DNA of 12,515 bases from an uncultured Bacilli bacterium (GTDB lineage: Bacteria > Bacillota_I > Bacilli_A > RF39 > UBA660). Numbering within the stretch: position 1 is the first letter of the stretch; the number at the start of each line of letters is the position of its first letter. The stretch covers positions 1-12,515 of the forward strand of contig CANRKW010000022.1 of the NCBI GenBank assembly GCA_947631345.1. Direction: 5' to 3'. The notes under the pieces were generated by a model. It worked only from the letters and a program-made list of their open reading frames with translations, was not told the origin of the DNA and searched no databases. Below, in pieces: positions 2,060 through 12,168 of the stretch. A program made the translations under genes and the position numbers.

Positions 2060-2361
2060 AATAAACCTATTACTCTTAAATTTAATGGATTAGTATTAAT
2101 TAAATTAGCGAGTTCTTCTTTATTTTCATATTTGTCTATTTTATTTTTTATACTACTTATTGTATCACAAAACATAGATGGATTTGTGAGTAGAATACCA
2201 TATATATTAGTAACACCAATTGACTCAAAGATATCTAAAATATTCTCTATTTTATCACTATCATATATAAATATATCTAAATTTATATCATTATCTATAA
2301 TTTTTTCTTTAACTTTTTCTATTTGTTCATTATTTAAATTGTATTTTTCTAAATAATTCAT
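2056..2361 (-). CDS. Small helical protein with mTERF-like repeats, function unknown
   Basis: The 101-residue product is not recognised. It is predicted to be all helical and soluble, with no signal peptide or membrane segment. Residues 37-66 (KIENILDIFESIGVTNI, then a helix containing LLTNPSMF) and 71-101 (ending TNPLNLRVIGLL) look like two copies of a helix-turn-helix motif. The pattern of leucines, a gly-val turn and an Asn-Pro pair resembles mTERF repeats, which bind nucleic acid or form solenoids. The resemblance is by eye only. Its ATG overlaps the TGA of the gene upstream by four bases, and its own TGA overlaps the LtaS-type start by four bases. Its translation is therefore locked between the two, which suggests a fixed stoichiometry with them. 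Confidence 0.7.
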   Translation of the reverse strand: MNYLEKYNLNNEQIEKVKEKIIDNDINLDIFIYDSDKIENILDIFESIGVTNIYGILLTNPSMFCDTISSIKNKIDKYENKEELANLINTNPLNLRVIGLL

Positions 2362-4289
2362 AAATTATTATTCCTTCCCATTATTATACTTTCTATATTT
2401 TTATAATCTGCTTCTGTTATAAATGAATTTCTAATTATAGAAGTAAGTAACATTTCTTTTGTTAAGTTACCATATAAACCTTTTAATATTGATGCATAAT
2501 GTAATACTTTATATCTAGATATTATTCTATTATTAAATAGATATATATATTCACTTGCTTTATAGTTTTCTTCTAAATTTCTTATTAATTCATCATTTAA
2601 AATTTCTTCTATATAGTATTCTTCTTCGTGATCTTTTAAAGATGTTATATATTGTATTATCATTTTATCATATATAGCATAGTCTTCTATCTTTTCAATT
2701 CCACTTACAAAATTAGTTAAAAGGAACTCTTCCATTTCTTCACTATTAGATAAAAGGCGTCTATCTTTTTCGTCAAATATTTCACTACTTTGAGTTCCAG
2801 CTTTCTTTTTAGAGAAGAATATATTGTAAAATTCTTTATAACCATTAGTATATAATTTATGGCTTAACAAAGCGTGTTCACCTATACTTTTTAAATGTAA
2901 GTAACTTAAATTTCTCATAAAGTAGTTTCTTATAGATTCATTATATATACCTTTTTTACTCATATTATTTTGAAAATCTTGATTTTTTACTATATCAGAA
3001 TCCATACTTTCAAATATAGATGTGTTTAATGGATTTAAAAGACCTAGTTCAATTGCTAAATGTAGTTTGTCTTCAAAATCTCCTTTCATACAAGTTATAG
3101 GTACTTTATATACACTATTTAATTTAAATAATCTACAAAGTGCGATGTTTTTCTTAAGCATCCAAGTAGGTATAGTTTTAATACTCATATCACTTCCAGT
3201 ATCATCTAAATTAATTTCTTCATCAAATAAATCTCTATTTTGTTTTAATAATTCTATATTTTCTGTTAATTCTTCTAAACTAATAGTATATGATTCGTTA
3301 TGTAAACTCTTTTTAATAGAAGTACCTTCTCTTTTTTCTCTAACTCTAAATACAGGTGGTCTATAATTTCTATTATTTTTTATCCAAATACTTGCATAGG
3401 CATCTTCAAAATAAGCTTCATTTATTTCACCATTTTTATTTATTTTTTCGTATATTTTTTTTATATCGTCAATTTTACCATATAAAGTTACTTTTAAAAG
3501 GGCAGTTTTTCTAAATCTTTCTAATATATTTTCTTCTTTAAAGAATTGTAATATTTCCCTTGTATTTTCTATATCTATATTAGATGTTACTTCTCTTTCA
3601 TATTCTTGTAGCATTTTTAGAAAACTATTTATATAGTCTTTACTTAAGTATTCTTTATATAAGTCCATTACTTTATCTAAAGGAACATTATTTTTAGAAG
3701 AATAACCACTTAAATTTCTTGTATTATAAAAACTTTCTATTATAGTTAAAGCTTCTTCTAAATCTATTTCAAGAAGTGGAATTTCACTATAAAGGTCGTA
3801 AAACATTTCTTTAGTATAGTATTTTCTATTACCCTTATTTTCTAATATACTTTTAATAGCTTCAATGTTTTCTATTTTTCTTGATTTTTCTTCTGGTATT
3901 TTTATTTCTTTTATTTCTTCTAATAATCTTACTTCTAAACTTCTTAATTTTTCTAAAAACATATTATATGTATTTATTTGTCTTTCTGAAAAAGGAAGTT
4001 CACTACTAGAAAATTTTAAATCTTCTCTTGCTTTTATAACATTTTTCATATCAGTAATTATTGTAGAAAAATCACTTATACTATAGTTATATGCTTCTAA
4101 TAAATTTAAAAGAGTAGAAAAATCAAATTCATAAAATTCTTTATCATTTTCTAAAATTTGGTAACACTTTTTTATTGCTTCAATTTGCTTTAAAAGTTCT
4201 TGTTGTTTTACTATATTAATCATTTTTAATTCTTCTAATTCTTTTCTTAAAGCATCCAATTTTTCATTAATTATTGTAACAGAATCCAT
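2358..4289 (-). CDS. Large helical coiled-coil protein, function unknown
   Basis: The 643-residue protein is not recognised. Residues about 5-45 form a strong heptad coiled coil (KLDALRKELEELK). The rest is charged and helical with no signal peptide or membrane segment, so it is probably cytoplasmic. From about 340 to 420 there is a loosely repeated pattern (ENIELLKQN, KNIALCRLFKL, EDKLHLAIELGLL) resembling the helical repeats of the next gene. The C-terminus (about 590-640) is a compact helical segment containing ISRYKVLHYASIL. A TTG at 4301 would give four extra residues, but that extension reads through the GGGAGGA ribosome site, so the ATG at 4289 is the start. This ATG overlaps the upstream stop as TAATG. 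Its TGA overlaps the next ATG. It is the central gene of the operon. Confidence 0.8.
   Translation of the reverse strand: MDSVTIINEKLDALRKELEELKMINIVKQQELLKQIEAIKKCYQILENDKEFYEFDFSTLLNLLEAYNYSISDFSTIITDMKNVIKAREDLKFSSSELPFSERQINTYNMFLEKLRSLEVRLLEEIKEIKIPEEKSRKIENIEAIKSILENKGNRKYYTKEMFYDLYSEIPLLEIDLEEALTIIESFYNTRNLSGYSSKNNVPLDKVMDLYKEYLSKDYINSFLKMLQEYEREVTSNIDIENTREILQFFKEENILERFRKTALLKVTLYGKIDDIKKIYEKINKNGEINEAYFEDAYASIWIKNNRNYRPPVFRVREKREGTSIKKSLHNESYTISLEELTENIELLKQNRDLFDEEINLDDTGSDMSIKTIPTWMLKKNIALCRLFKLNSVYKVPITCMKGDFEDKLHLAIELGLLNPLNTSIFESMDSDIVKNQDFQNNMSKKGIYNESIRNYFMRNLSYLHLKSIGEHALLSHKLYTNGYKEFYNIFFSKKKAGTQSSEIFDEKDRRLLSNSEEMEEFLLTNFVSGIEKIEDYAIYDKMIIQYITSLKDHEEEYYIEEILNDELIRNLEENYKASEYIYLFNNRIISRYKVLHYASILKGLYGNLTKEMLLTSIIRNSFITEADYKNIESIIMGRNNNL
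3022..3366 (+). other. Plus-strand open frame judged not to be a gene
   Basis: This open frame lies wholly inside the well-supported minus-strand gene at 2358-4289, has no ribosome site of note, and its product is a Ser/Leu/Phe-rich string typical of an antisense shadow. It is entered only to say that the largest opposite-strand frame here was considered and set aside. Confidence 0.05.
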
Positions 4290-4492
4290 TATTCCTCCCA
4301 ATTTGTAACAAGTTCTAAAGTTTTTAAATAAAATGAAAAATCATCTATTCTATTAGTATAGTTACTAATTAACTTATCGGAATCTATTCCTAATTTAAAC
4401 GATAGAACATCTATATCTATATTTTTTTCTTTAATTAAATTTAAAGTTTTGTTTTTTATATCTAAAAATAAGTTATTTAATTTTTCTTCCAT
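4289..4492 (-). CDS. Small HTH-like protein (67 aa), function unknown
   Basis: This short protein carries a segment (about 20-55) with the spacing of a lambda-repressor or XRE-type helix-turn-helix. IKEKNIDIDVLSFKLGID is followed by DKLISNYTN, where one expects a leucine, small residue, LG turn and recognition helix. No other domain fits in 67 residues. It could be a DNA-binding autoregulator of the operon or only a small helical partner. The ATG lies 16 bases inside the end of the preceding gene, with an AAGGAAAG sequence about 12 bases upstream. Its TAA overlaps the next ATG as TAATG. Overlap on both sides supports it as a real gene despite its size. The HTH call is by eye. Confidence 0.65.
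   Translation of the reverse strand: MEEKLNNLFLDIKNKTLNLIKEKNIDIDVLSFKLGIDSDKLISNYTNRIDDFSFYLKTLELVTNWEE
4293..4299 (-). promoter_or_regulatory. Ribosome binding site that fixes the start at 4289
   Basis: On the minus strand GGGAGGA lies four bases before the ATG at 4289 and inside the end of the 67-aa gene. It rules out the in-frame TTG at 4301, whose extra codons would be this ribosome site. Confidence 0.8.
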
Positions 4493-5952
4493 TTATAATC
4501 ACTTTCCTTCATTAAAGATTTAATTATTTCACTTTGTGATAAAACTGTCATACTATCTTGATTTTCTAAAGCAGTTATTAATTTAAGTATAGCTTCTTCA
4601 TAAGATTTTATTATTCTTGATGTATTTTCATTTATTTTGTTGTTTTTAAATTCTTCTGCATATAATATTAATATACTATTATCTCTTAATTTAACAAAAG
4701 AAATTATTATTTTAGAATTAATAGTTGTAAAAATATCTTTACCACTTTTTTCTTTAAATTTTTTGCTTCCACTCATAATTCTAACACTAGTTTTTTTTCT
4801 TTGAATCATCTCATTTTCTGCTTTTTCTAATAAATTCATTAAATTATTTACTAAGTTATCTTCTTTTATTAAAGGTGAAATCATAGGTTCATTATTTTCA
4901 TCTGGTAAGAAATATGCTTTAGAAAATACAAATTCATTTTCTTCTTTTTTATTTTCTGTAATTTGTTTATCTAATTCTCTTAATTTATTACATAAAAGAG
5001 TATATTCTTCATCTATACATAATTCTAAAAAATCTATATCTTCTTTATCTTTATATCCATCACTAGATATTTTTACAATTTTTTCTTCTAATCCACTTTT
5101 ATAATCAAATAGTTTAAAAGCAACTACTTTAGCAAGTGCATCTTCATAACTTTGTCCATCAAATATAGCTTTTAATTCTTCTGTACTAAATTTATCTAAT
5201 GCTTTTGCATATCCGTGGTAGGAATTTTGTAATTCTTTAGACATTTCACTTAACATATTATAGTATTTATTTAGTAAATCGTTCATTTCTACATTTATTT
5301 TATTATATTTTTCTTTAACTACTAAAAATTCAGTTTTATAATTTATCTCTACTATTTCAATAGCTTCTTCTTTATCTTCTTTTATTTCTTCTTTTTCTTC
5401 AGTTTGCTTAACTTCTTTAGGTTTTCTTACTACATTAGATTTTGATCCTTTATACATAGGATATAATAAAATTTTTCTCATTTCTTCTCTATCTATATTA
5501 TATTTTTCACATATTCTAACAATTAAATGAAAATCTGCTAATACACCCATATACAAATCATATACATCACTATAATTTTTACTTTCTTTAATTAAATCAC
5601 TATTATATATTTCTAATTTTTCACTAAAAGTTTTTATTCTTTCTCTTATTACTTTAAAAGCTTCTTTACATAAATCATTTTCTTCATTATTTAAATTTAC
5701 AAAATACCCAGCTATTTTAAAATGTCGTTCTAAAGAACTATCTATTGATATTATAGGATTTTTATATTTTAGCAATAAACCATTATCATTATATTTTTCT
5801 ATTTTAATTACTGTTTCTATTTTTTTTATATCTGCTTCAATCTTTGATATTTCACCTTTTATAAATGACAATTCTTTATATAGATAACTTCTAAATAAAT
5901 CCCAAGATTTTTTTGATTCAAGAATATCTCTTTCTATTTCAATAAATTCCAT
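4477..5952 (-). CDS. Coiled-coil protein with acidic linker, first gene of operon, function unknown
   Basis: The 491-residue protein is not recognised. It has no signal peptide or membrane helix. Residues 8-52 and 100-125 are coiled-coil-like. A helical segment near 146-168 (ICEKYNIDREEMRKILLYP) has a turn between two helices. Residues 176-203 form a Lys/Glu-rich flexible linker. A second helical region follows (205-375). Near 385-450 the pattern changes to alternating strands and helices (SVRIMSG, KIIISFVKLRDNSILILYAEEF), a possible small folded domain. The start ATG has GAGGG five bases upstream. It is the first gene after the sigma-A promoter at 6066-6094, with a leader of about 105 bases. 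Its end overlaps the HTH-like gene by 16 bases. The two-arm layout suggests a scaffold or adaptor, but that is inference. Confidence 0.8.
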   Translation of the reverse strand: MEFIEIERDILESKKSWDLFRSYLYKELSFIKGEISKIEADIKKIETVIKIEKYNDNGLLLKYKNPIISIDSSLERHFKIAGYFVNLNNEENDLCKEAFKVIRERIKTFSEKLEIYNSDLIKESKNYSDVYDLYMGVLADFHLIVRICEKYNIDREEMRKILLYPMYKGSKSNVVRKPKEVKQTEEKEEIKEDKEEAIEIVEINYKTEFLVVKEKYNKINVEMNDLLNKYYNMLSEMSKELQNSYHGYAKALDKFSTEELKAIFDGQSYEDALAKVVAFKLFDYKSGLEEKIVKISSDGYKDKEDIDFLELCIDEEYTLLCNKLRELDKQITENKKEENEFVFSKAYFLPDENNEPMISPLIKEDNLVNNLMNLLEKAENEMIQRKKTSVRIMSGSKKFKEKSGKDIFTTINSKIIISFVKLRDNSILILYAEEFKNNKINENTSRIIKSYEEAILKLITALENQDSMTVLSQSEIIKSLMKESDYKWKKN

Positions 5953-6103: not shown

Positions 6104-6131
6104 TTATAAAAAAAACTAGGAATTCCTAGTT
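6104..6131 (-). terminator. cotE: Intrinsic terminator of the miaB-cotE transcript
   Basis: The minus-strand sequence AACTAGG-AATT-CCTAGTT (6114-6131) forms a seven-pair stem followed by a run of eight T (6106-6113). The TAG stop of cotE (6126-6128) lies inside the 5' arm, so the terminator begins before the coding region ends. The strong sigma-A promoter of the next operon starts about 20 bases further on. Confidence 0.85.
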
Positions 6132-6644
6132 CAAGTAATTTTCATTTATATTATCTATTTGTTTTTTCATTTCTTCAGTATCTTCTATTATATCGTATTC
6201 ATCTGTATCTTCCATTATTTGTATTCTTACTTTAGCATCTCCTATTATTTCTATTCCTAAACATTTTTCTATTTCATAATATATTGTATTATCTTTACTA
6301 CTAACATCTATTACTGTTGGATTTTTTAGACTTGTTATCATTATTTCACTATTATCATCTAAAACTGCATTGCCTTTTAAGTTTATTCCTACAACTTCTT
6401 CATAACTAATTTGCCTTGCTTCCACATTAGTTTTAGTATTATTATCATAACTATACCAAATATTGACATCAAAACTTCCTACAATTTTAACTTTGCCATT
6501 ATAATTATAACCACTCATTGTATGATTAATTACCCAACAACCTAAAACTGTATCTATTTTATTTGTCCCTACTATTTCATATTTATCTTTAAAAGTCTTT
6601 TTTCCTTTTCCAATAACTGCTTTAGTAACAATTTCCTTATACAT
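6126..6644 (-). CDS. cotE: Outer spore coat morphogenetic protein CotE
   Basis: CotE assembles around the forespore and is needed for outer coat formation in Bacillus. The 172-residue product (181 in B. subtilis) matches from end to end by memory of the sequence: YKEIVTKAVIGKGKK near the N-terminus, VLGCWVINH at 33-41, FDVNIWYSYDNNTKT at 58-72, and an acidic tail ending in INENYL like the B. subtilis INPEFL. The ATG at 6644 has AGGTGA seven bases upstream. It sits 34 bases after a TPR-like gene, downstream of miaB. B. subtilis also has cotE downstream of miaB, with ricA between and mutS after. Here neither ricA nor mutS is seen. A sigma-K-like promoter match lies in the gap. The match is strong and specific to spore formers. 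Confidence 0.93.
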   Translation of the reverse strand: MYKEIVTKAVIGKGKKTFKDKYEIVGTNKIDTVLGCWVINHTMSGYNYNGKVKIVGSFDVNIWYSYDNNTKTNVEARQISYEEVVGINLKGNAVLDDNSEIMITSLKNPTVIDVSSKDNTIYYEIEKCLGIEIIGDAKVRIQIMEDTDEYDIIEDTEEMKKQIDNINENYLN

Positions 6645-6661
6645 ATATCATTCACCTATTT

Positions 6662-6688
6662 TAATATATGATATTTACCTAAATTTGT
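6662..6688 (-). promoter_or_regulatory. Possible sigma-K promoter upstream of cotE
   Basis: On the minus strand AC (6687-6688) is followed after 16 bases by CATATATTA (6662-6670), which fits the sigma-K pattern AC-16/17-CATAnnnTA. In B. subtilis cotE has a sigma-K promoter as well as a sigma-E one. The leader would be only about 12 bases and barely include the ribosome site. Such short patterns are common by chance in AT-rich DNA, so confidence is low. Confidence 0.25.
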
Positions 6689-7656
6689 TTCCTTTTTAAT
6701 GTGTCATTTTCTAAAAAACTTAAGTCTTCTGCATAATCTATTGGAAACATAGATATTATTTTTTTAGTTTTAAAAGCAGATATTACTTTAATAGTTTTTA
6801 TCTCTCTTCCTTTATATCTACTTACAATTTTATCTGTTGTTACTGGGTATACACTTACTATTTCATCTCTATAAGGAGTTATTGTTTCAATTTTTTCTTT
6901 TACTTCTTCTATTAATTTTTTTATATCAAGTTCATTTAAAAATGAAACTGCATTAGGTGTTATTTTTTCTTTATGTAAAGAAATATGATTAATTAAAATA
7001 TTTTGATCACTTCCAAATAGTATTTCTTTTAGATATACACAACTATCTAAATTGAAACTTCTATAGTCTTTTCCTAATTTAGTTAAAACAAAGAATCTAA
7101 GTTTAGAGTATTTATCATATAAGGCTACATTTTTCTTTAGTTTATTTTTATCAACTTTTTGTAAGTAAAAATACGCTTCTTCGTATTTATCTTCTAGTGC
7201 TAAAAGACAGGCTTTCCAAAAATGTGAGATATTACTAAGTTCTCGATCTTTTACTGCTTTTTGTACTAAATCATCACTTTCTCTTATATTACCTAAATTA
7301 TAATTAAAGAAAATTATATCTTCATTATTTAAGGCATTTATTAAACGAGTAGATTCCATATCTTTTAGAGTTAAAGCATATTCTAAAGCTTGTTCTAATT
7401 TAAAATGTCCTTTTAGTATTAAACTTTTTAAATATGTTCTTAAGTAATTATTTTCTCCTACTAATTCTGATAATTTAATACTTGCTTCATTATATTTTCC
7501 TTCTAGTAAGTCTATTCTAATAAGCATTAAATTAGCCATATAGCCAAGGGATGAGTCATATTTACATAACTCAAAAAACTCTCTTGCATTTACATAACTT
7601 TTTTTAGCAAAACAAAGACATCCTTTATCATACATATATTTTGATTCTATTATCAT
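6679..7656 (-). CDS. TPR-like helical repeat protein between miaB and cotE, function unknown
   Basis: The 325-residue protein has paired helices over residues 1-195 typical of tetratricopeptide-like solenoids, for example YDKGCLCFAKKSYVNAREFF, LLEGKYNEASIKLSEL and ALEDKYEEAYFYLQKV. Each pairs a small residue with aromatic or leucine positions. The last 70 residues (about 250-325) look like a separate small strand-rich part. There is no signal peptide or membrane segment. It starts eight bases after miaB, with its AGGTGA ribosome site overlapping the miaB TAG, and cotE follows 34 bases later. In Bacillus this slot holds RicA (YmcA), a much shorter helical protein; I see no match to it. A protein-binding role near MiaB or CotE is inference from position. 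Confidence 0.75.
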   Translation of the reverse strand: MIIESKYMYDKGCLCFAKKSYVNAREFFELCKYDSSLGYMANLMLIRIDLLEGKYNEASIKLSELVGENNYLRTYLKSLILKGHFKLEQALEYALTLKDMESTRLINALNNEDIIFFNYNLGNIRESDDLVQKAVKDRELSNISHFWKACLLALEDKYEEAYFYLQKVDKNKLKKNVALYDKYSKLRFFVLTKLGKDYRSFNLDSCVYLKEILFGSDQNILINHISLHKEKITPNAVSFLNELDIKKLIEEVKEKIETITPYRDEIVSVYPVTTDKIVSRYKGREIKTIKVISAFKTKKIISMFPIDYAEDLSFLENDTLKRKQI

Positions 7657-7664
7657 TTATTCAC

Positions 7665-9077
7665 CTATTTTATTAATGTACCATTTAAACTAAAACTTTT
7701 TGCTTCATCTATTTTTACATTAACAATCTTTCCTATAATATTTTCATCACTTATAATATTTACAAGTTTCATATTTTCAGTATAACCCATATATTTATTT
7801 CTATCTTTTTCACTATAATCAAGTACTAAACATTTTACTGTTTTTCCAATTTCTTTTTGATTAGATATATTACTATAAGTATTTACTAATTTGTTTAGTC
7901 TTTGTAATCTGTCATTTTTTTCTTCTAATGTTATGTTATCTTCAAATATTGAAGCTGGTGTTCCTTCTCTTGGACTGAATATAAATGTATATGCCCCGTC
8001 AAATTTACACTCATTTACTATATCTAGTGTTTCTTTAAAGTCTTCTTCAGTTTCTGAAGGGAAACCTACTATTATATCAGTAGTAATACTTACTCCTTTT
8101 ACTTTTTCTCTAATTTTTTTGTATAATTCTAAATATTCTTCTTTAGTATAACGCCTTCCCATCAATTTTAATATTCTGTTACTTCCAGATTGAATAGGTA
8201 AATGTACATAAGGCATCACATTATCGCACTCACTTATCGCGTCTATCATTTCATCTGTAAAATCCCACGGGTGACTTGTAACAAAACGTATTCTTGGTAT
8301 ACCAGTTTTACTAACATCTCTTAGTAAATCAGCAAGTGTATAGTCAGTATACAAATCTTTTCCATAAGCATTTACATTTTGTCCTAGTAATGTTACTTCA
8401 CTATAGCCTTTTTTTACTAAATCTTCTACTTCTTTTATTATATCAGTTTTATCTCTACTTATTTGTTTACCTCTTGTATAAGGAACAATACAATATGTGC
8501 AAAATTTATCACAACCAAATATAATATCAACCCAAGCGGTATATTTGCTATCCTTTTTTTCAGGTATTCCTTCACATATGTAATCATTAGAATTTAACAC
8601 TTCTATAACTTGTTTTCCAGTTTTTATTCTTTCATTAATTACATTAACTAAATTATCTAAATTATGTGTTCCAAATATAAAATCAATGTATTTATATTTT
8701 TCCATTATGTTTTTTACTACATTTTCTTCTTGAGCCATACATCCACATAAACCTAGAAGCAAATCTTTCTTTTCTTCTTTTATCTTCTTTATTAAACCCA
8801 TAAAACCAAATACTTTATCGTGGGCATTTTCTCTTATTGCACACGTATTTAATATAATTAAATCAGCTTCATTTATATCAGAAGTTTCTATCATTTTATT
8901 ATCAGTTAAAATTCCTTTTATTTTTTCTCCATCATGTTCATTCATTTGACATCCATAAGTTCTTACAAAGAATTTCTTATTAATTAGTTTCTCATTAAGT
9001 GAAATATTTTTATAATTTTTTGTTTCCTTTTTATCTTTATCCCTTTTCTTTTCTTCAATTCTATTAGGTATATTCAT
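7665..9077 (-). CDS. miaB: tRNA-2-methylthio-N6-isopentenyladenosine37 methylthiotransferase MiaB
   Basis: MiaB converts i6A37 to ms2i6A37 in tRNAs reading U-starting codons, using two iron-sulfur clusters and SAM. The 470-residue protein has the N-terminal cluster domain with Cys43 (YGCQMNEHD), Cys79 (NTCAIRENA) and Cys113 (CGCMAQEE). The radical-SAM core has Cys189, Cys193 and Cys196 (FGCDKFCTYCIVPYTRG). A C-terminal TRAM domain covers about 403-470. All six cluster cysteines are present, and the CAIRENA and VPYTRG signatures favour MiaB over MtaB or RimO. The first 30 residues are a Lys-rich extension, also seen in Bacillus homologues. AAGGAG lies seven bases before the ATG. It follows rluB by 11 bases and precedes the TPR gene by eight, within one transcript ending after cotE. 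Confidence 0.97.
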   Translation of the reverse strand: MNIPNRIEEKKRDKDKKETKNYKNISLNEKLINKKFFVRTYGCQMNEHDGEKIKGILTDNKMIETSDINEADLIILNTCAIRENAHDKVFGFMGLIKKIKEEKKDLLLGLCGCMAQEENVVKNIMEKYKYIDFIFGTHNLDNLVNVINERIKTGKQVIEVLNSNDYICEGIPEKKDSKYTAWVDIIFGCDKFCTYCIVPYTRGKQISRDKTDIIKEVEDLVKKGYSEVTLLGQNVNAYGKDLYTDYTLADLLRDVSKTGIPRIRFVTSHPWDFTDEMIDAISECDNVMPYVHLPIQSGSNRILKLMGRRYTKEEYLELYKKIREKVKGVSITTDIIVGFPSETEEDFKETLDIVNECKFDGAYTFIFSPREGTPASIFEDNITLEEKNDRLQRLNKLVNTYSNISNQKEIGKTVKCLVLDYSEKDRNKYMGYTENMKLVNIISDENIIGKIVNVKIDEAKSFSLNGTLIK

Positions 9078-9826: not shown

Positions 9827-10897
9827 TTAAATTACATTTGACAATAGTCCTTTTAATTTTGGGTATTTTGGGTATTTTATTAAAGAATTTAATAAGTAAA
9901 TTGCTTCACTTTTAATGAATTTACCATTTACATATATTTTAGCATATCCCACTATCATATTATTTTTTATCTTTTTCTTTTTTATAAGTTCAATATTAAC
10001 AGTAACTTTATCTAATTCATTTTTGTTTAACATAATAAATACATCATTTTTTATATATAAATGATACTTTTTATAATAATCATCTTTTATAACAAAGGTG
10101 TATTTGTCTAATATTTTATAGCTATCATATGAATTAAAGTACTTTTCATATAATTTTTTATGTGTATTAAATCTATTCTTATCATTAAAGGTGACTATTA
10201 TTAATTCTTCACTTGCCCGTTTTGCACTTGAAACTAAGATGTAGCCACTTTTATCAGTGTAGCCTGTTTTTCCACCAGTAGTGTATTTGTATTTTGTCAG
10301 AAGTTCATTTTTGTTATACCAAATGTAATTTTCCATACTACTAGTTAATGTGTATTTTTTTATTTTATTAATTTCAGTAAACACTTTATTTTTATTTGCA
10401 TAAGCCATTAATATTGCTAAATCATATGGAGAACTGTAATTTTCAGTTTTGTTATCTAGTCCGTGAGGATTTCTAAATATAGTGTTTTTCATACCTATTC
10501 TTATTGCTGTTTCGTTCATTTTTTCAATAAAAGCATCATAACCTAATGTATTTTCTGCTATTACCATTGCTGAGTCATTTCCACTTCTTAATAAAAGGCC
10601 TACTAAAAGATCATATAAAGTCATACATTCGCCCTTTTTAATGTAAATCATAGATCCATATACTTCTTCTATTTCATCACCTGCACATAGTATTTTTGTG
10701 GTATCTTCATTTTCTAAAGCGACAATTGCAGTCATTATTTTAGTAGTACTTGCTATTAATAATTTTTTGTCTATGTTTTTTCCATCAAGTACTCTTAAAG
10801 ATTTACTATCCATTACAATAAATGAATCATAAGCATATATCTTACTTTTATAAATAAAACTTAAAATACAAATAAAAATTAACAATATTTTTTTCAT
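9827..10897 (-). CDS. D-alanyl-D-alanine carboxypeptidase (DacB/DacF-type PBP5 family)
   Basis: This secreted penicillin-binding protein removes the terminal D-Ala of peptidoglycan stem peptides. The 356-residue product has a signal peptide (about 1-22, IYA then YDS) and all three active-site motifs: Ser50-Thr-Thr-Lys53, Ser105-Gly-Asn107 and Lys210-Thr-Gly212. Residues from about 265 form the strand-rich C-terminal domain; a terminal amphipathic anchor helix is not evident. Family members are usually 380-440 residues, so it is short. A GTG at 10936 would add 13 residues, but it lies inside the upstream terminator; the ATG at 10897 gives a standard signal peptide. No Shine-Dalgarno is seen. 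Position before rluB resembles B. subtilis dacB, the sporulation PBP5* that lowers cortex cross-linking. A vegetative role is possible. Confidence 0.93.
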   Translation of the reverse strand: MKKILLIFICILSFIYKSKIYAYDSFIVMDSKSLRVLDGKNIDKKLLIASTTKIMTAIVALENEDTTKILCAGDEIEEVYGSMIYIKKGECMTLYDLLVGLLLRSGNDSAMVIAENTLGYDAFIEKMNETAIRIGMKNTIFRNPHGLDNKTENYSSPYDLAILMAYANKNKVFTEINKIKKYTLTSSMENYIWYNKNELLTKYKYTTGGKTGYTDKSGYILVSSAKRASEELIIVTFNDKNRFNTHKKLYEKYFNSYDSYKILDKYTFVIKDDYYKKYHLYIKNDVFIMLNKNELDKVTVNIELIKKKKIKNNMIVGYAKIYVNGKFIKSEAIYLLNSLIKYPKYPKLKGLLSNVI

Positions 10898-10905
10898 ATC
10901 AATAA

Positions 10906-10935
10906 ATATTATGAAGGTAACTAAAAAAAATACCA
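10906..10935 (-). promoter_or_regulatory. Possible sigma-E promoter before the carboxypeptidase
   Basis: On the minus strand TGGTATT (10929-10935) is followed after 15 bases by CATAATAT (10906-10913). This partly fits the mother-cell sigma-E pattern (KMATATT, about 14-15, CATACAHT): roughly five of seven and six of eight positions. A start six or seven bases on would fall two or three bases before the ATG and give an almost leaderless mRNA, in keeping with the missing ribosome site. The -35 overlaps the terminator stem. The match is weak. Confidence 0.25.
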
Positions 10936-10949
10936 CATAAAGTGATATT
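10923..10949 (-). terminator. Intrinsic terminator of the lipoprotein gene
   Basis: On the minus strand AATATCAC and GTGGTATT (10942-10949 and 10929-10936) form an eight-pair stem with one G-U and a five-base loop. It is followed by a run of T (10923-10930, overlapping the end of the stem). The 5' arm begins with the last two bases of the lipoprotein TAA. It separates the lipoprotein transcript from the carboxypeptidase-to-cotE genes, at least in part. Confidence 0.65.
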
Positions 10950-11487
10950 ATTCATAATTATATGTACCGTGTATTTTTTCTAAAGTAGTGTTATCAAAAT
11001 CTTCTACTTTCCATTTGTCATCTTCTTTTGTTAGGTTTACTGTTATAGTGTAGTCTACTCTTTCATCTACTTCTAACATTTTATCTAGTTTATAATTTAG
11101 GAATTTTTTTTCATTATATACGCCTTCATCCATAAATTCTTCTTTATTGTTATTTAGGTAATCATTTGCATTTTTTTGTACTTTATAAAAGTCATACACA
11201 GTGATGTTTACTTTTACTTCTGCTTCATCCCCTTCAACTTCTTCACTCACAATTTTGTATTTTAAATCGCTATATTGCATACGCATAGCTTTCATATATT
11301 TTTCTTTTTGTGAAGTTTCAGTAAATGTACTAGATTCACTAGTAAGCTCTAAGTCACTTAAAACTGCCTCATCTAAATTTTGATATTTTTTTAAGACTTC
11401 TTCTACTTTTTTACTAGGAGTATCTTCAATTAATGAACAACCTAATAATAAAAATAAACTAGATAAAATTATAAACAATTTTTTCAT
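10948..11487 (-). CDS. Small lipoprotein of unknown function
   Basis: The 179-residue product has a lipoprotein signal peptide: MKKLFIILSSLFLLLGCS, with the lipobox LLGC and the acylated Cys17. The mature part is acidic. It begins with a helix (TPSKKVEEVLKKYQNLDE), then shows alternating strands (YKIVSEEV, AEVKVNITVYDF, VDYTITVNL, WKVEDF). This order of helix followed by a curved sheet is common in NTF2-like or DUF4878-type lipoproteins, but I do not recognise a family. It would be anchored on the outer face of the membrane. GAGGAGG lies six bases before the ATG. It is 51 bases from the gene upstream and followed at once by an intrinsic terminator. Confidence 0.85.
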   Translation of the reverse strand: MKKLFIILSSLFLLLGCSLIEDTPSKKVEEVLKKYQNLDEAVLSDLELTSESSTFTETSQKEKYMKAMRMQYSDLKYKIVSEEVEGDEAEVKVNITVYDFYKVQKNANDYLNNNKEEFMDEGVYNEKKFLNYKLDKMLEVDERVDYTITVNLTKEDDKWKVEDFDNTTLEKIHGTYNYE

Positions 11488-11538
11488 TAGTTTCCTCCTC
11501 TAGTTTATATTTTAACCTTAATATTTTTATTTATACAT

Positions 11539-12168
11539 TTATTTTTTTATAGTAAGTAAATGTAATAATTCTAAAAATTCTAAATGTTTTTTAGTAAATT
11601 CTTTTTTTAAGTCTTTTATAAGAGTTTCATATTTGTTTACACCATTTGATGAATCAAACCACTCATAATATAAATAATCTATTTTTACTTGACTATCTTT
11701 AATACTTTCTAATTCATTTATTATGTTTTCTAAAATTATTCTATCACTTCTAATCATATTGTTATATTTTATTTTACTTAATACTTCATAATCTATATTA
11801 GTTATTTCATTTGAAACTGCAAGTTCAGATATTTCTCTTTCTTCATTAACTAGAAAATTGCTCATTTTAGTAGTAACACCATTATTATTAAACATAACAC
11901 AAATGGAATTTTTCTCATCACTTATAATAGCCATATAAGGAATTAAATCTATATTTTTTAAAGAAAACACTTGAGTTTTATCTTTAATTATATTTAAAAA
12001 TTCTTTGGAAACTTTAACTTTATTAAACATAAAATCACATAAATTATTATGATTAACTTTAAATAATGGAACTCTCCTTATATGAAGCAAGTTATCATTT
12101 TCTTCCCAATCATAAAAATCATATAATTCTTCATTTAGATTAACTAAAATATCATATACATATACCAT
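11539..12168 (-). CDS. Conserved-looking Bacilli protein of unknown function (possibly DUF3603-like)
   Basis: The 209-residue soluble protein opens with VYVYDILVNLNEELYDFYDW and HIRRVPLFKV, then has a strand-rich N-terminal half to about residue 105 (IPYMAIISDEKNSICVMFN) and a helical C-terminal half. The opening recalls a Bacilli family I remember as DUF3603, but this is from memory and not certain; no activity is known to me. There is no signal peptide. The ATG overlaps the TAA of the small membrane protein gene as TAATG, with AAAGGGG nine bases upstream, so the two are co-translated. The lipoprotein gene follows after 51 bases without a visible terminator. Confidence 0.75.
   Translation of the reverse strand: MVYVYDILVNLNEELYDFYDWEENDNLLHIRRVPLFKVNHNNLCDFMFNKVKVSKEFLNIIKDKTQVFSLKNIDLIPYMAIISDEKNSICVMFNNNGVTTKMSNFLVNEEREISELAVSNEITNIDYEVLSKIKYNNMIRSDRIILENIINELESIKDSQVKIDYLYYEWFDSSNGVNKYETLIKDLKKEFTKKHLEFLELLHLLTIKK

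Follow-up and report, generated by a model that had tools for sequence, protein, structure and literature searches.

An intact cotE in an uncultured gut Bacilli genome, and recombinase-bearing elements that split cotE and two other spore-linked genes in its relatives

The stretch of DNA analysed here (the window) comprises 12,515 nucleotides of contig CANRKW010000022.1, from an uncultured Bacilli bacterium of the RF39 lineage, and carries an intact gene for the spore-coat protein CotE. We judge this to be a genuine CotE in a small-genome, probably walled lineage of uncultured gut Bacilli that very probably forms endospores. In relatives of the window's host, cotE is a target for the integration of elements carrying a large serine recombinase, and these elements would be excised at the time of sporulation; taken as a whole, we regard this explanation as likely. 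The CotE of the window is itself a further member of a known family, and what is new is the interruption of cotE and spoIVA in the relatives.

Interruption of cotE in related genomes

Relatives were collected by a scan of genome contigs, which found 250; the best 80 were taken as loci (L numbers), and all but three of these (L007, L016 and L054) are marked as metagenome-assembled genomes (MAGs; 77/80). For genome-wide comparisons we used 385 genomes (G numbers), an even draw from a larger set belonging to the order of G001, which is the genome of locus L001 and encodes a CotE 72% identical to that of the window. Eight of these genomes have a split cotE, and the break is always at the same codon, which in the window encodes His41. 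The two halves lie on one contig and strand in G033, G093, G169 and G179, separated by 8.3, 7.1, 6.4 and 15.4 kb, respectively, and on two contigs in G027, G217 and G349, while in G266 the 3′ half alone was found. The 3′ half is immediately preceded by the gene for a large serine recombinase with Resolvase, Recombinase and zinc-ribbon domains; in G349 this gene instead follows immediately on the 5′ half. Comparison of the G027 recombinase with the 385 genomes gave seven matches at 62–100% identity, the next being at most 42% identical, although the scan scored no more than three candidates per genome and the seven may miss some. A cotE fragment adjoins every one of these seven recombinases and none of the 23 next-best loci. 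In the eighth genome, G217, the contig stops just before the cotE 3′ half, yet it holds what appear to be the last residues of the recombinase.

The break falls immediately after the codons for GCWVINH. The left attachment site (attL) ends in CAT and the right one (attR) contains CAT (CAC in G217), and most ends of the cotE elements carry arms of the type GTTATCACC...GGTGATAAC. Joining the flanks restored an in-frame, full-length reading frame of 176–179 residues in all seven genomes having both halves, and the joined proteins share 59–98% identity with the closest intact CotE from the loci. The C-terminal halves of the split genes are under purifying selection: the ratio of nonsynonymous to synonymous substitution rates (dN/dS) was 0.025–0.146 in seven split–intact pairs, compared with 0.047–0.193 in four intact pairs. 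In addition, 120 database relatives of the G093 3′ half were listed, and 14 of the 19 sequences read from among them start at the junction or carry a short foreign lead ahead of it; one is named CotE by NCBI and lies on a contig of 34,364 bases, like that of G033. All nine genomes examined (the eight above and G271) keep Spo0A and SpoIVA. A search of viral contigs for the cotE-type recombinase, by exact-word patterns only, returned 11 pattern matches, none of which was a relative.

Five further candidates for an interrupted cotE were dropped: G380 (a frameshift), G331 (contig ends, with the junction intact on both contigs), G382 (two copies, one of them matching positions 2–150), G279 (a fragment under the cut-off) and G271 (a whole cotE together with a second 3′ part). 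At the last of these (L145; G271:C8:26000-40000) the whole gene occupies 2498-3010 and the second 3′ part 11437-11829, 8.4 kb downstream and behind an attR-like arm. The two copies are identical at 417 of 420 bases over the compared stretch, the three differences, all silent in the protein, being clustered just past the junction. The open reading frames (ORFs) listed between them include no serine recombinase, and this may perhaps be a decayed element. We also observed that the two halves of the G093 gene (L138) may differ in history, the proportion of synonymous differences (pS) from L066 and L056 being 0.04 for the 5′ half and 0.36–0.38 for the 3′ half.

Recombinase subfamilies paired with spoIVA and a lipoprotein gene

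In G093, spoIVA is split as well, inside two contigs, and a different serine recombinase precedes its 3′ half. The recombinase of this second kind from G010 gave 19 matches at 65–98% identity in the 385 genomes, the next being at most 45% identical. A spoIVA 3′ half adjoins all 17 of the loci with a visible flank (17 of 19 overall, G317 and G028 being cut by contig ends), compared with none of 41 other recombinase loci. In four genomes the two halves share a contig and strand, at distances of 13.8 kb (G197), 5.2 kb (G364), 3.3 kb (G309) and 11.1 kb (G276). The joined gene is open in five of five cases and encodes 489–492 residues with 62–80% identity to an intact SpoIVA, the reference being the one of ten fetched loci that a script recognised as intact. 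The junction codon is TGG, and the arms are of the type GGTATCAC...GTGATACC. Two other genomes, G012 and G217, were dropped as spoIVA interruptions, as their apparent splits are contig ends. In G010, the 3′ half with its recombinase (L153/L203, G010:C7) stands alongside a whole spoIVA elsewhere in the bin (L204, G010:C45); megablast between the two copies gave no match and they are therefore not near-identical, and the extra one is possibly contamination or a second copy.

A small ORF precedes the spoIVA-type recombinase in 18 of the 20 loci fetched, with a length of 41–73 residues in the 15 rows listed. The sequence CATANNNT stands 27–33 nt before its start in 18 of 18 cases, representing 13 distinct upstream sequences, compared with 60 of 721 control ORFs, and the product had no Pfam match. 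SprB, the factor that times the excision of SP-beta, has 58 residues, and its mother-cell promoter combines a perfect −10 sequence with an imperfect −35 (PMC4191935). By analogy with SprB, the small ORF, with its mother-cell-type −10 sequence CATANNNT, may be regarded as a candidate directionality factor.

A third gene is affected in the same manner. Among the 23 distant recombinase loci, four (L091, L096, L106 and L109) have the recombinase ahead of the 3′ part of a lipoprotein gene. Of 40 genomes with both Spo0A and CotE, 37 contain a relative of the intact form, P0243 (332 residues), compared with one (G024) of 17 with neither (p 2.6e-10), and in six of the 37 the match is broken near residue 98–101. 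Three of these six (G022, G025 and G036) have the two parts on a single contig and strand; the other three, G019, G032 and G044, may include contig ends. The joined gene was open and in frame in three of three cases (G364, G167 and G295). Pfam and NCBIfam gave the protein no name. A structure model of modest quality (mean predicted local distance difference test score, pLDDT, 69.1) placed RseB/MucB at the top of a fold search, followed by LolA, with GerS at rank 20 (7rag, E 6.6e-6); GerS has been described as LolA-like (PMC8496864). With this mean pLDDT, and with GerS only at rank 20, we use ‘GerS-like’ as a fold-level label.

Recombinase class and target gene are thus paired, with one subfamily for each of cotE, spoIVA and the lipoprotein gene, and two of the genes can be interrupted in a single genome, cotE and spoIVA in G093 and spoIVA and the lipoprotein gene in G364. 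Separately, at nine loci (L092, L094, L095, L097, L098, L099, L101, L103 and L107) other serine recombinases lie beside an opposite-strand gene with a KVAEVTHSVFYAPQY-like stretch; this gene, which perhaps encodes a transporter substrate-binding protein, is a possible further integration site.

The window gene, its promoter and its surroundings

The initial annotation had named the window gene a full-length CotE, and a profile search bore this out: the protein matched Pfam PF10628 over model positions 2–175 of 177 with an E value of 1.8e-40, scoring 138.8 bits where the cut-off is 25. There was no match among the NCBIfam profiles or, by sequence, among the solved structures of the PDB. At E ≤ 0.001 it has 6210 relatives in the protein database, and the best among the 120 listed is 99% identical and lies on a contig of 1,064 bases. 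Trp37 and Trp63, 26 residues apart, are invariant in an alignment of 12 rows, and 11 of the last 28 residues are acidic. The features of the window are collected in Table 1.

Table 1. Features of the window, with the basis of each assignment.
Feature	Position	Strand	Basis
Terminator-like element (inverted repeat, then a T run) that overlaps the stop codon of cotE	6108–6132	−	Read directly from the sequence
cotE, 172 residues, intact	6126–6644	−	PF10628 profile, Trp pair, acidic tail
CAT codon of His41, predicted empty counterpart of the relatives' integration site	6522–6524	−	Same codon is the junction in the relatives' split cotE
Putative sigma-K-type promoter motif, AC-N16-CATATATTA	6662–6688	−	Pattern match to the sigma-K consensus
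Weakly tetratricopeptide-repeat (TPR)-like ORF, 325 residues, separating miaB and cotE	6679–7656	−	TPR_2, 15.2 bits against a cut-off of 27
miaB	7665–9077	−	TIGR01574, 526.5 bits, cut-off 355.3
D-Ala-D-Ala carboxypeptidase	9827–10936	−	PF00768, 2.4e-50

Promoters recognised by sigma-K have the consensus AC-N16/17-CATANNNTA. In 53 of 74 cotE upstream regions, the window included, this pattern is present in the 150 nt ahead of the gene, compared with nine of 721 control ORFs from the same loci, and 100 shuffles of the cotE upstream regions gave it a mean of 0.4 and a maximum of three times; CATANNNTA alone was found in 71 of the 74 regions and 70 of the 721 controls. The 74 regions are those of 73 loci and the window, the remaining loci having given no usable start, and the loci are mutually related, so that the counts are not independent trials. 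A two-box sigma-E-type promoter was found in none of the 74 regions; its −10 sequence alone, CATACANT, was present in nine, compared with a shuffle mean of 0.9 and six of the 721 controls. In the window, the sigma-K-type motif overlaps the TPR-like ORF at its end. Of the signs within the window itself that cotE is expressed in sporulation, as predicted from the pattern match, this motif is the strongest, and the gene is probably transcribed in the mother cell from this promoter just upstream.

The initial annotation had also taken CotE to signal endospore formation in this lineage. The genomes of 12 relative loci measure 0.7–1.5 Mb and hold one CotE each. Among the 385 genomes, CotE was found in 344 above the cut-off and 345 at E ≤ 1e-3, and Spo0A in 345 above the cut-off and 351 at E ≤ 1e-40. 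With the two E-value thresholds, and with genomes absent from the match lists counted as misses, 328 genomes have both proteins, 17 neither, 17 CotE only and 23 Spo0A only (Fisher p 4e-10). In a draw of 60 genomes from the same order, all eight without Spo0A over the cut-off were also without CotE, and 50 of the 52 with Spo0A have it (p 1.8e-8). Seven of those eight genomes likewise gave no SpoIVA and no SigK-like match (E ≤ 1e-30), while G024 retains SpoIVA and sigma matches. In the 12 near-relative genomes, SpoIVA was found in all (in G012 as two pieces at contig ends), Spo0A in nine, and a SigK-like match of more than 275 bits in 11; the curated SigK cut-off of 298.65 was passed by G009 only, and in a control B. 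subtilis likewise fell below it. The claim is supported by way of the relatives, through which sporulation of the window's own host is predicted; the initial interpretation as a whole is supported in part. For a recent loss of sporulation, the other outcome that had been suggested, the window cotE offered no support.

In Bacillus, cotE is positioned near miaB, and a miaB-linked position had been claimed for the window gene too. The two genes are indeed neighbours, but they are not adjacent. Of the 57 relative loci whose sequence reaches more than 5 kb ahead of cotE, 28 have miaB on the same strand and no farther upstream than 5 kb (34 of 80 when every locus is counted), and in the 31 loci inspected the genes separating the two differ; in L002 miaB directly adjoins cotE. 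The link appears real but loose. The TPR-like ORF that stands between them in the window has tblastn relatives in two of the 80 loci (L004 and, as a distant match, L003).

The GC content of the window is 22.7%. Its composition had been likened to that of wall-less or uncultured gut Bacilli, but a wall-less state is contradicted by the D-Ala-D-Ala carboxypeptidase gene, which argues for a peptidoglycan wall; the host is probably walled. Elsewhere in the window, 161-2059(−) encodes a sulfatase-fold membrane protein (PF00884), which we take to be LtaS-like, and a relative lies downstream of cotE in three of the 80 loci (L001, L004 and L005), all of them among the five closest. Two long ORFs, 4477-5952(−) with 491 residues and 2358-4301(−) with 647 residues, gave nothing over the Pfam cut-off, no NCBIfam match and no tblastn relative in the 80 loci.

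Proposed excision during sporulation and comparison with known systems

In our reading, the elements that split cotE in the relatives are placed at the conserved GCWVINH codons by a single subfamily of large serine recombinases. We propose that the recombinase would cut its element out precisely as the cell sporulates, most likely within the mother cell, where cotE would be restored, the forespore retaining the element. A second subfamily would act likewise on spoIVA, and a third on the spore-linked LolA/GerS-like lipoprotein gene. For skin and SP-beta the accepted logic is that a gene whose only use is in the mother cell makes a safe target: the mother cell dies, and the forespore keeps the element. 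We lean towards the broader view that in many species of this order spore assembly depends on programmed excision of this kind, by which coat and cortex genes would be freed of their elements in the mother cell while the spore keeps them, with separate recombinase lineages acting on cotE, spoIVA and the GerS-like gene, sometimes two in one genome, and that the cotE of the window would be an empty target.

Several points weigh against this proposal. No excised form was seen, and the loci in the split-gene and recombinase analyses are related, so that the counts are not independent. A sporulation-type motif upstream of the cotE-type and spoIVA-type recombinases was found at none of 24 loci except that of G349, in which the sigma-K-type motif before the recombinase is cotE's own upstream region; the 23 control recombinases had no sigma-K-type motif upstream. 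No small ORF of at least 40 residues is shared among the four complete cotE elements, and in the sole split–split pair, G179–G093, the cotE dN/dS was 0.305. The G027 element carries conjugation genes, and its excision may therefore serve transfer, and one in-frame TAG is present in each of the recombinases G169:C68:17677-19344 (cotE element) and G102:C5:58320-59870 (spoIVA element). The conjugation genes, the two TAG codons, the failure to find a mother-cell promoter for the cotE-type recombinases in the scanned loci and the lack of any observed excision would all fit a situation in which the split genes are dead, the elements having entered spore genes no longer needed and any excision serving the element alone. 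We consider this doubtful: the halves are open and in frame in seven of seven cotE, five of five spoIVA and three of three lipoprotein cases, dN/dS is low in the C-terminal halves of cotE, the nine examined genomes retain Spo0A and SpoIVA, and a mother-cell-type −10 sequence precedes all 18 small ORFs of the spoIVA elements.

The support for sporulation of the window's host also comes from its relatives rather than from its own genome, and 17 of the 345 CotE-bearing genomes of the order lack Spo0A at E ≤ 1e-40, while the 23 genomes with Spo0A only lack CotE; incompleteness of the MAGs may account for single absences of either protein. That CotE is a relic, or has been put to another use, in a lineage that no longer sporulates would accommodate both the 17 genomes and the fact that sporulation genes were checked in the relatives, but it is improbable in view of the association of CotE with Spo0A, the presence of SpoIVA in all 12 near relatives, the sporulation-type promoter motif and the purifying selection. 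We give very little credence to the splits being artefacts of assembly or binning. The genomes fetched from the order are draft assemblies, some of the apparent splits turned out to reflect contig ends (G331 for cotE; G012 and G217 for spoIVA) or a frameshift (G380), and in G010 the spoIVA 3′ half with its recombinase coexists with a whole copy. However, the halves lie on one contig and strand in four cotE, four spoIVA and three lipoprotein cases, each gene has a single junction codon and attachment arms in common, and 14 database clusters, among the 120 listed relatives of one cotE 3′ half, start at the junction or carry a short foreign lead ahead of it. Excision of the elements during sporulation, from spore genes that are still in use, is thus the reading that we prefer.

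These results strengthen the case that genome-reduced gut Bacilli, often filed near the Mollicutes, retain a working spore programme. The short list of genes known to be interrupted by removable elements also grows by three, two of them at the core of coat building and the third linked to spores. The split cotE of the relatives hints that DNA must be cut out for a spore to be built; if excision is indeed programmed, DNA rearrangement in spore development would be wider here than is known for Bacillus or Clostridium. A practical consequence is that half a cotE or half a spoIVA in an annotation could wrongly mark such species as non-sporulating.

Spore formation has previously been predicted from gene content for RF39 and parts of RFN20, and in a limited form for parts of ML615J-28, by Field et al. 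(PMC10868615). The inference drawn in the initial annotation was therefore already in print at the level of the lineage, and its view that such bacteria are not commonly regarded as spore-forming is out of date. That study, like ours, concerns small-genome gut Bacilli and predicts sporulation from gene content, including spo0A; its main text makes no mention of CotE or spoIVA, and it is not known to describe interrupted spore genes. The CotE of the window belongs to the same Pfam family, over its whole length, as the outer coat morphogenetic protein of Bacillus, and shares the spacing of the Trp pair and the acidic C-terminal tail. In B. cereus CotE, Trp39 and Trp65 are conserved, Trp65 has been shown to link trimers and an acidic tail has been described (PMC11980541). 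The window differs in that its host belongs to a small-genome gut lineage of low GC content and in having a different gene ahead of cotE near miaB, and the function of its CotE on a spore is a predicted one. The lipoprotein gene recalls GerS of C. difficile (7rag, PMC8496864), a lipoprotein linked to spores and with a LolA-like fold, but RseB/MucB and LolA rank higher in the search with our modest model and the likeness is one of predicted fold.

The spore genes reported as interrupted by December 2023 are sigK (by skin), spsM (by SP-beta), spoVFB (vfbin), gerE (gin) and yabG (yin) (PMC10747680); the interruption of spsM by SP-beta is described in PMC4191935, and gin is reported to be without phage genes (PMC5595907). 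Listings from the open literature, with most subscription papers and all bioRxiv preprints outside it, showed no description of such an interruption in cotE, in spoIVA or in a LolA/GerS-like gene. The elements described here resemble those of the skin type in that a spore gene is split by an element with a large serine recombinase, at a short common junction sequence, and in that joining restores the protein; they further resemble gin in having no phage genes. Known so far as sequences, they differ from the skin-type elements in their targets, cotE, spoIVA and a LolA/GerS-like gene, in their occurrence in uncultured gut Bacilli, in their varying cargo and in having a recombinase subfamily of their own for each target.

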